DNA of 64,000 nt from Phycisphaerae bacterium (lineage in GTDB: Bacteria; Planctomycetota; Phycisphaerae; UBA1845; Fen-1342): NCBI GenBank assembly GCA_030428945.1, contig JAUIEC010000002.1, forward strand, positions 372,001-436,000, in the 5' to 3' direction. Of this stretch, positions 45,681-52,034 are shown piece after piece. Under the pieces are notes generated by a model, which saw only the letters and a list, made by a program, of their open reading frames with translations, ran no database searches and was not told the origin of the DNA. The position numbers and the translations under genes are program-made. The stretch's first letter is position 1. Each line of letters begins with the position of its first letter.

Positions 45681-45984
45681 AGGAATCAACGTCGACCGCC
45701 CGGAACCCAGCCCGGGAACAGCTTCGACGAGGCGCGTTCAGGCATCCCCGATCCGCATCCCCGATCGGCGTTCCCGGTCGCCGGTCCGCGGTCTTGGTGC
45801 CTGGTCCGCGGTCCTTGGTCCCTGGGTGCCCTGTCGTCGCCCGCTCCCTCTTCCCCGTCACCCCGGTCCCGTTCCCGCTCTCTGGCTCCCTCGATCTGTT
45901 CCGCGTCCCCCGACTCGCTCCCTCGCTCCCGAGCTCCCTCGCTCCCTGTTCCCTGTTCCCTGTTCCCCGTTCCCTTCCCCAACT

Positions 45985-46058
45985 GCGGTGCGGCATCGAC
46001 GGGCGTGGCTTCCACGACCGATTCGGCCGCGGTCGGCCGCGTCGATGACGCACCCTAC
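45985..46058. repeat. Dispersed 74-bp palindromic element, copy 3
   Basis: Inside the first satellite unit: GCGGTGCGGCATCGACGG at the left and GCGTCGATGACGCACCCTAC at the right. Confidence 0.8.
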
Positions 46059-46347
46059 AACGCTCCCCGCTCATCCCGGGAACAGCTTCGACGAGCCGCG
46101 TTCGGGCATCCCCGATCGGCATCCCCGATCGGCGTCCCCGGTCCGCGTCCCCGGTCCTTGGTTCCCGGTCCGCGGTCCTTGGTGCCTGGGTGCCCTGTCG
46201 TCGCCCGCTCCCTCGTCCCCGTCACCCCAGTCCCGTTCCCGCTCCCTGGCTCCCTCGACCTGTGCCGCGTCCCCCGACTCGCTCCCTCGCTCCCTCACTC
46301 CCTCGCTCCCTGAACCTGTTCCCTGTTCCCTGTTCCCTTCCCCACCT

Positions 46348-46421
46348 GCGGTGCGGCATCGACGCGCGTGGCTTCAACGAGCGATTTGGCCGCGGTCGGC
46401 CGCGTCGATGACGCACCCTAC
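46348..46421. repeat. Dispersed 74-bp palindromic element, copy 4
   Basis: Inside the second satellite unit, nearly identical to copy 3, differing mainly in the centre. Confidence 0.8.
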
Positions 46422-46919
46422 AACGCTCCCCGCTCATCCCGGGAACAGCTTCGACGAGGCGCGTTCGGGCATCCCCGATCGGCATCCCCGATCGGCGTCC
46501 CCGGTCCGCGTCCCCGGTCCGCGGTCCGCGGTCCTTGGTTCCGGTCCGCAGTCCTTGGTGCCTGGGTGCCCTGTCGTCGCCCGCTCCCTCGTCCCCGTCA
46601 CCCCGGTCCCGTTCCCGCTCCCTGGCTCCCTCGACCTGTGCCGCGTCCCCCGACTCGCTCCCTCGCTCCCTCGCTCCCTCACTCCCTCGCTCCCTGAACC
46701 TGTTCCCTGTTCCCTTCCCCAAATTCGGCGCCGCTGGTCCGAAGGCATGCGCCGACCTGCCACATCGTCTTCATGCGCCTGCGGTCCGAACGAGGGCCTG
46801 TCACGCCGGACCCCGCCTCACGGTGCCCGAAAAACGAAAACTGAAATCGGACCACTCTGCCGGCTTCCGCCGATCCGCTATTCTGACCAGGGCCGACGGC
46901 TATCAAGGAGGAGCGAGCG

Positions 46920-47297
46920 GTGCAGTGCCCCAATTGCAGCGATGTCGAACTGGAGGAGCAGACCGTCGACGGCGTCGGCATCGATCGCTGTCCGACCTGC
47001 CGCGGAATCTGGCTGGACATGCTCGAACTCGAACGCCTGCTCGAGTCCGCCCCGCGCGATCTGCTCCGCGAAGACCGCGCCGCCGCAGCCGAACGGGATA
47101 CGACCGCCGAGGAGGCCCGCCGACCCTGCCCCAAGTGCCGCGGCGGATACCTGATTAAACTCAACAGCAGGCACCGACCCGGGACGATCGTCGACAGTTG
47201 CACCGTCTGTCACGGAACCTGGCTCGAGGCCGGCGAACTCAGCCGCCTGAGCAGTCGCGGACTGACCGGCTGGCTGTCGGACCTGTTCGGAGGGTAG
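46920..47297 (+). CDS. zf-TFIIB double zinc-ribbon protein
   Basis: A 125-residue protein with two zf-TFIIB repeats: CPNCSDVELEE with CPTCRGIWLDMLELE, and CPKCRGGYLI with CTVCHGTWLEAGELSRL. Each provides CxxC pairs for one zinc. Function of such small proteins is not established; they are thought to bind nucleic acid or protein. GTG start with an AAGGAGG site eight bases upstream. It opens a three-gene operon with a small membrane protein five bases downstream and the AhpD-like selenoprotein candidate. Confidence 0.85.
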   Translation: MQCPNCSDVELEEQTVDGVGIDRCPTCRGIWLDMLELERLLESAPRDLLREDRAAAAERDTTAEEARRPCPKCRGGYLIKLNSRHRPGTIVDSCTVCHGTWLEAGELSRLSSRGLTGWLSDLFGG

Positions 47298-47302
47298 GCC
47301 GC

Positions 47303-47812
47303 ATGAAAAGCGGGTTGGCGGTGATCGGCCTGTGCCTGGTCGTCAGCGGAATCCTCGCGTTCGCGATGAAGCGGCAGATGCAGACCGAACTGGTCGGCTG
47401 CCAGGACCTCGTGCTCGGCCTGATCTTCTACATGGAAAAGCACGACGGGGCCCTGCCACCGTCCGAGGCCGATTTCCGCGCCGAACCCTACGTGGTCGAA
47501 CTGCCGGAGGGCGGCGTTCGGATCGAGGCCCCGGCCGAGACGAACTATCCGAGCAGACCGCACGGCTACCCGATCCCGGACCTGCGCGTCTACAAGGTGG
47601 CCTGGGGCCGGTCGCTCGATGATCTCGAGGTTGACGAGTACATGCGGGTCTGCGATGCCGAGGGCAACAAGGTCGAGCTGGCCAGTTGGCCCAGCAGTCC
47701 GCCGTCCGGCAAGGGCTATTCGGTCATCCTGCTGGCCACGAGTCGCGAGATCCAGGCCCGGCAGGCCGAAGGAGGCAGCGCGGATGTACATCCAGCCGAC
47801 GCCCCTGAATAA
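47303..47812 (+). CDS. Small membrane-anchored protein of unknown function
   Basis: A 169-residue protein: one N-terminal helix (LAVIGLCLVVSGILAFAM), then a soluble part with LVLGLIFYMEKHDGALPPSE and YPIPDLRVYKVAWGRSLDDL. The length and the single N-terminal helix resemble pseudopilin-like or DUF1559-type small proteins, but no motif fixes this. GGAGGG precedes the ATG. It overlaps the next gene by 29 bases, so translation of the two is coupled. No cysteine redox motif is seen. Confidence 0.7.
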   Translation: MKSGLAVIGLCLVVSGILAFAMKRQMQTELVGCQDLVLGLIFYMEKHDGALPPSEADFRAEPYVVELPEGGVRIEAPAETNYPSRPHGYPIPDLRVYKVAWGRSLDDLEVDEYMRVCDAEGNKVELASWPSSPPSGKGYSVILLATSREIQARQAEGGSADVHPADAPE

Positions 47813-48347
47813 GGCCTCCGGCAAGCTGGCCGAGCTGTACGCCCGCTACGCCAATCCGGATGGCAGCGTCGATGCGATCCTCCAGGCTCACAGCCCCAAT
47901 CCGCCGGCGCTGGCGGCGCACGCCGGCTTGTATGTGCAGGCCCTGCATCACGAATCGCCGCTCAGCCGGCTGGAGCGCGAGCTGATCGCCGTCGAGGTCA
48001 GCCGACTGAACGAGTGCCATTACTGACTGGCGCACCACGCCGCAGGTCTGCGGCGCCTGCTTCCCGACGACCGCCAGGCGGTGGCCGACGACCTTCCCCG
48101 GGGCGAAACGGGCGGGCTGACGCAGCGCGAGCGGATGATCGTCGCCTACGCCAGCGAACTGACCATCGCCCCGCAGCGAATCAGCGAGGCGCACGTTGCG
48201 GCCCTCCGCAACGTCGGCCTCGACGACCGGGCGATCCATGACCTCGTACAGGTGGCCGCCTACTTCGCATACGTCAATCGAATCGCCCTCGGGCTGGGAG
48301 TCGAGCTCCCGCCGGACGAAACACTCGGCGCCTGGCCGGCGCAGTAG
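47784..48347 (+). CDS. AhpD-like alkylhydroperoxidase-family selenoprotein candidate (CxxU)
   Basis: One 187-residue protein interrupted by an in-frame TGA at 48024-48026 (codon 81). Before it: ERELIAVEVSRLNECHY. After it: LAHHAAGLRR and, near the C-terminus, HDLVQVAAYFAYVNRIALGLG. This is the peroxidase-related branch of the AhpD/carboxymuconolactone-decarboxylase fold. The AhpD site is Glu-x11-Cys-x2-Cys-x3-His; here Glu66, Cys78, codon 81 = TGA, His85, so TGA replaces the second, reactive cysteine. The frame stays open with family-like sequence to 48347. ATG 47784 has AAGGAGG eight bases upstream. Selenocysteine is the most economical reading; a nonsense mutation is the alternative. It would serve peroxide or disulfide chemistry in the cytosol. 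Confidence 0.85.
48027..48063 (+). promoter_or_regulatory. Candidate bacterial SECIS hairpin after the TGA
   Basis: CGCCGCA (48038-48044) and TGCGGCG (48049-48055) form a perfect 7-bp stem with loop GGTC. The decamer GCAGGTCTGC (48042-48051) equals the apical part of the E. coli fdhF SECIS as I recall it. Counting the TGA as 1-3, the loop G22-G23-U24 falls on the same positions as in fdhF. The bulged U17 of fdhF is a paired C here. Confidence 0.75.
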
Positions 48348-48833: not shown

Positions 48834-48975
48834 CGCCCGGCGGAAGGAATCTGCAAAGTCCCCGGTATTCACCTGAACCGTCGCGACGAAGCCTTGTGGT
48901 AACATTGAATTCGGGGCGGGGGCGCCCCCGGGGGGATCGGTCCGCCCGCGGGCCGTGCAGGCCGAGGGTCTGCGC
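48834..48975. repeat. 142-bp direct repeat, left copy
   Basis: About 97% identical to 51892-52034, starting CGCCCGGCGGA and ending GAGGGTCTGCGC, with a GGGGGCGCCCCC palindrome inside. The copies have the same orientation and bracket two unknown genes. Confidence 0.9.
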
Positions 48976-51891: not shown

Positions 51892-52034
51892 CGCCCGGCG
51901 GAGAGAATCTGCAAAGTCCCCGGTGTTCACCTGAACCGTCGCGACGAAGCCTTGTGGTAACATTGAATTCGGGGCGGGGGGCGCCCCCGGGGGGATCGGT
52001 CCGCCCGCGGGCCGTGCAGGCCGAGGGTCTGCGC
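51892..52034. repeat. 142-bp direct repeat, right copy
   Basis: Same sequence and orientation as the copy at 48834, one G longer in the GGGGCGGGG run, with a few substitutions. It ends 380 bases before the HerA-like gene. Confidence 0.9.

Follow-up and report, generated by a model that had tools for sequence, protein, structure and literature searches.

An AhpD-like gene of a Phycisphaerae bacterium very probably encodes a CxxU selenoprotein

Introduction

How should a gene be read when its coding frame carries a TGA codon at the place where an AhpD-type enzyme would have its second active-site cysteine? Such a gene lies at 47784-48347 of the 64-kb stretch of planctomycete DNA analysed here, hereafter called the window. 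The original prediction for this DNA took the TGA as selenocysteine (Sec) in a CxxU enzyme and suggested that the gene belongs to an operon with a zinc-ribbon protein and a small membrane protein, a context that it did not know to be described. The protein kind itself has been known since 2005, when the Sargasso Sea yielded 27 sequences of AhpD-like CxxU selenoproteins (COG2128; PMC1088965). By 2006, two AhpD-like selenoproteins were known from genome sequences (PMC1794560); 299 AhpD-like CxxU genes came from the Global Ocean Sampling (PMC2398784), and a 2026 review lists TIGR01926 with CxxU among selenoproteins (PMC13188914). Here, we ask what the TGA means in this gene, what the protein may do and whether its neighbours matter.

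Results

When the TGA is translated as a residue, the gene yields M...NECHY-U-LAHH...WPAQ, that is 80 residues, U81 and 106 further residues up to the TAG stop, and this codon is the sole interruption of the frame, as had been predicted (Table 1). The product matches the Pfam CMD domain (E 1.5e-13) and the NCBIfam family TIGR01926, peroxidase-related enzyme (E 1e-35), to which it belongs with 123.2 bits against a cut-off of 81.8; the alignment runs from residue 3 to 174 and spans the TGA. Partial matches to NF041238 AhpD_rel_CFYUT (51.9 bits against a cut-off of 175) and NF053654 GroundWater_YciW (24.7 against 310) mark these as other families. An AlphaFold model built from thirteen sequences has a mean pLDDT of 94 and nine helices in the all-helical AhpD fold. 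The AhpD-like proteins 3c1l, 2oyo and 6k40 were the best matches among solved structures both for the sequence and for the predicted fold, the latter in Foldseek with TM up to 0.85. These Cys-type, peroxidase-related proteins (3c1l is Mlr4105 and 6k40 the D. radiodurans AhpD) have the fold, the length and the Glu/Cys/His site in common with the present gene, but carry Cys where it has UGA.

Table 1. Positions in the window of the AhpD-like gene, its predicted functional elements and its two upstream neighbours
Feature	Position	Strand	Basis or remark
Two TFIIB-type zinc ribbons (PF13453), 125 aa, GTG start	46920..47297	+	domain match
169-aa protein, N-terminal hydrophobic segment, no known family	47303..47812	+	frame and domain search
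AAGGAGG, Shine-Dalgarno-like, 5' of ATG	47769..47775	+	sequence
AhpD/YciW-like (TIGR01926) gene, 187 aa, predicted selenoprotein	47784..48347	+	ATG to TAG
Glu66, putative proton-relay glutamate	47979..47981	+	Glu 81/88, Val 7; role per PMC3141380
Cys78, putative resolving cysteine of CxxU	48015..48017	+	invariant 88/88
TGA very probably read as selenocysteine, residue 81, second position of CxxU	48024..48026	+	aligned loci
His85, putative proton-relay histidine	48036..48038	+	invariant 88/88; role per PMC3141380
Predicted bacterial SECIS core CGCCGCA-GGUC-UGCGGCG, 7-bp stem, GGUC apical loop	48038..48055	+	folding

The CxxU motif is accompanied by Glu at -15 and His at +4 relative to Sec, and the predicted spacing Glu66-x11-Cys78-x2-TGA81-x3-His85 proved correct and equal to that of the AhpD/PA0269 relay (PMC3141380). 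Glu66, Cys78, Tyr80, U81 and His85 match the PA0269 relay Glu36/Cys48/Tyr50/Cys51/His55 position for position, whereas M. tuberculosis AhpD, with Glu118/Cys130/His132/Cys133/His137, has His132 where Tyr80 stands here and is otherwise equivalent (PMC3141380). Cys at -3 and His at +4 do not vary among the 88 loci counted. In one selenoprotein subgroup (L070, L075-L080) the relay Glu at -15 is replaced by Val.

Because these residues and the fold are conserved, a mechanism can be proposed by analogy with AhpD. His85 and Glu66, the latter through Tyr80 and water, would activate Sec81; its selenolate would attack a hydroperoxide or a disulfide; Cys78 would resolve the intermediate by forming a selenenylsulfide; and a thiol partner would reduce the Cys78-Sec81 bond again. 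The gene product most likely uses Sec to reduce hydroperoxides or disulfides. A selenoprotein with a job other than peroxide reduction, such as a disulfide reductase or adaptor, a dehalogenase or an enzyme of some other CMD-superfamily reaction, is a less probable but serious alternative: the debrominase Bmp8 and sestrins are among the weaker superfamily matches, and TIGR01926 is named merely 'peroxidase-related'. However, the AhpD/PA0269 catalytic residues are all retained and the nearest structures are annotated as AhpD or antioxidant defence proteins, which favours AhpD-like action.

What do homologues carry at codon 81? The relatives of the organism are Planctomycetota, mostly Phycisphaerae. 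Within the order, every one of the 59 homologous places with E <= 1e-20 carries TGA in frame at codon 81, always in CxxU. We then aligned 168 loci, some of them fetched twice, that came from the order, from the phylum at large and from a search across 84,980 species; because this search relied on a conserved peptide encoded beyond the site, it was blind to the choice between Sec and Cys. Codon 81 is TGA in 137 of these loci, TGC in 29, TGT in 1 and TTA in 1, so the in-frame UGA stands where 30 loci have Cys. Among the homologues found in the phylum, the Sec form outnumbers the Cys form. The TTA belongs to an Actinomycetes MAG (L135) that is otherwise a typical member; it is one base away from TGA. 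Matches in a plasmid collection were distant homologues below 60% identity and, among the matches listed, were annotated as peroxidase-related enzyme or not at all.

The genome has the means to decode UGA as Sec. The search proposed in the original prediction found a tRNA-Sec of 96 nt with a UCA anticodon (69.3 bits), selA (E 2e-135), selB within a 658-codon frame and selD (E 2e-108), which completes the selA, selB, selC and selD set. The selD gene (G000:C29:89173-90123, locus L010) has its own in-frame TGA within the N-terminal motif SCAGUAGK, and, as judged from this motif, the selenophosphate synthetase is probably itself a selenoprotein. A paralogous second AhpD-like CxxU selenoprotein gene with the other of the two SECIS types described below is present in the same genome (G000:C11:5979-6533, locus L062).

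Across 392 genomes of the phylum, SelA was present in 111 of the 114 with the TGA form versus 128 of the 278 others (Fisher P about 1e-25, kinship being ignored and the genome lists transcribed by hand), three genomes with weak, non-itemised matches having been left out of the TGA-form count. The lack of a SelA match in 3 of the 114 is probably due to incompleteness. Only one of seven Cys-only genomes in the phylum sample has SelA. Locus L082 (genome G333) has the Cys form, yet SelA is present in its genome and the gene retains a 7-bp SECIS-like stem; it is possibly a recent change from Sec to Cys.

The sequence on both sides of the TGA is similarly conserved, identity being 0.60 before and 0.54 after it in comparison with L023, and 0.47 before and 0.60 after it in comparison with L082. 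Downstream of the TGA, the excess of changes at third codon positions was significant against four of five relatives. Taken together, these two results argue that the frame beyond the TGA is not a chance one. They also bear on the view that a nonsense mutation or sequencing error has left a broken or mis-sequenced Cys-type gene. TGA differs from TGC by one base, and TGC occurs in close relatives of the same class. But TGA or TGC/TGT stands at the site throughout the homologues, with the one TTA exception, and TGA prevails in the aligned loci, which come from many genomes and phyla; coding constraint beyond it is intact, the Sec machinery is complete and the TGA form tracks SelA, all of which makes an error or mutation very unlikely. 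It is similarly hard to credit that the TGA is a true stop, the 80-residue part being made alone and the remainder being a relic or separately translated. Although TGA is the commonest stop of the long ORFs in the window (31 of 39), His85 and part of the AhpD fold are encoded after it, conservation is about equal in both halves and the relatives examined run through the site in one frame. Genome-wide reassignment of TGA, for instance to Trp, found no support and has a negligible probability, since TGA terminates most long ORFs of the window, the aligned residue in relatives without TGA is Cys and never Trp (the TTA locus aside), and a tRNA-Sec with a UCA anticodon is present.

Decoding as selenocysteine also calls for a SECIS element. 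The bacterial SECIS model has an apical loop of 3-9 nt with a G in its first two positions, a spacing of 16-37 nt and a stem of 4-16 bp (PMC13188914), and we also required an MFE of at most -7.5. In the AhpD-like gene, a GGUC loop on a 7-bp stem begins 18 nt after the TGA, and the 60-nt stretch around and after this codon folds with -20.4 kcal/mol, in agreement with the model. The inner 10 nt (GCAGGUCUGC) and their 15-nt distance from the UGA are identical to those of the E. coli fdhF SECIS, whereas the host gene of the latter is a formate dehydrogenase and its lower stem is unlike that found here; GCAGGUCUGC occurs once in the window. An Rfam scan of the region matched no SECIS family, nor anything else.

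As the hairpin lies within coding sequence, the reference for each gene was a set of its own synonymous recodings. Better folding than in the recoded versions was seen for 109 of 124 Sec forms (Wilcoxon P 2e-18) and for 15 of 26 Cys forms (P 0.2), and 93% of Sec forms versus 31% of Cys forms have a correctly placed stem of 5 bp or more. The signal is one of the family: the hairpin of the present gene, taken alone, does not go beyond synonymous recoding (z -0.6), a stem as long or longer arising in 13.5% of recodings. A second SECIS subgroup, GACCUCC-GG..-GGAGGUC, is located at a later position, and a gap-free tally within this subgroup revealed a compensatory C-G to U-A change. Since the stems lie in different registers among subgroups, covariation in a common alignment was set aside in favour of synonymous recoding and the gap-free tally.

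How often has the residue changed? The 151 proteins placed on a tree comprise 124 Sec forms, 26 Cys forms and 1 Leu form; no fewer than two changes of the Sec/Cys label are required to account for their distribution, and, with an arbitrary root, the tree gives these changes no direction. The AhpD-like protein groups with the Sec form L023, whose host is a planctomycete of the same family, and both fall in a poorly resolved part of the tree together with Phycisphaerales Cys forms and a Sec clade that includes Acidimicrobiia.

The AhpD-like gene does adjoin the zinc-ribbon and membrane-protein genes, and its start is overlapped by the 3' end of the latter. The proposed operon context did not prove conserved: neither neighbour was found beside any other family locus within the stretches around them. 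Seven further genomes of the order encode homologues of the membrane protein, and the wider neighbourhood of a homologue in four genomes contained neither a zinc ribbon nor an AhpD gene nearby. A conserved three-gene redox operon was therefore rejected, and the adjacency is no evidence of a new system. The three-gene arrangement is at most lineage-specific; the zinc-ribbon gene is possibly co-transcribed, a functional link being unsupported by conservation. It is a speculation, which we consider improbable, that this lineage has recruited a Sec-containing AhpD to a dedicated module, co-transcribed with the double zinc ribbon and a small membrane-anchored protein; such a module might serve to reduce or protect zinc-bound thiols at the membrane.

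Two sets of repeats lie in the vicinity. Between a gene that reads as LexA-like and the zinc-ribbon gene, a unit of about 240 nt occurs in three direct copies at 45708-46688, at spacings of 364 and 376 nt, along with low-complexity ccctcgctccct stretches. A GC-rich dispersed repeat, present at 48834-48975 and 51892-52034, matches 8 places in the genome, of which four are on contig C30.

Discussion

We conclude that the gene at 47784-48347 very probably encodes an AhpD/YciW-like (TIGR01926, COG2128) selenoprotein in which UGA81 is decoded as Sec, most likely with AhpD-like action. The selenocysteine claimed in the original prediction is strongly supported by the Sec machinery, the codons of homologues, the linkage with SelA and the SECIS signal, and from these computational data we infer that Sec is incorporated into the protein. 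Decoding would be carried out by SelB with Sec-tRNA, directed by the stem-loop that begins just 3' of the UGA.

Is the gene a new kind of selenoprotein? The novelty at which the original prediction hinted is contradicted by the catalogues, in which CxxU selenoproteins of the same family are already present (PMC1088965, PMC2398784, PMC13188914). The AhpD-like selenoproteins of those reports ('AhpD-like 1' in the Global Ocean Sampling) share with the present gene the family, the CxxU motif with Sec in second place and a SECIS directly downstream. They are, however, marine metagenomic or catalogue entries, while the present gene belongs to a planctomycete genome and stands beside two unrelated genes. 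In an incomplete literature search, we found no description of the COG2128/TIGR01926 selenoprotein family in Planctomycetota. The planctomycete gene thus adds a fairly ordinary member to a known kind.

If the in-frame stop is a recoded selenocysteine, this enzyme and its many relatives would be cut short or overlooked by standard annotation. Natural pairs of a Sec and a Cys form that are about 55% identical, the present protein with L082 or L115, could be used to measure the benefit that selenium brings to an AhpD-type enzyme.
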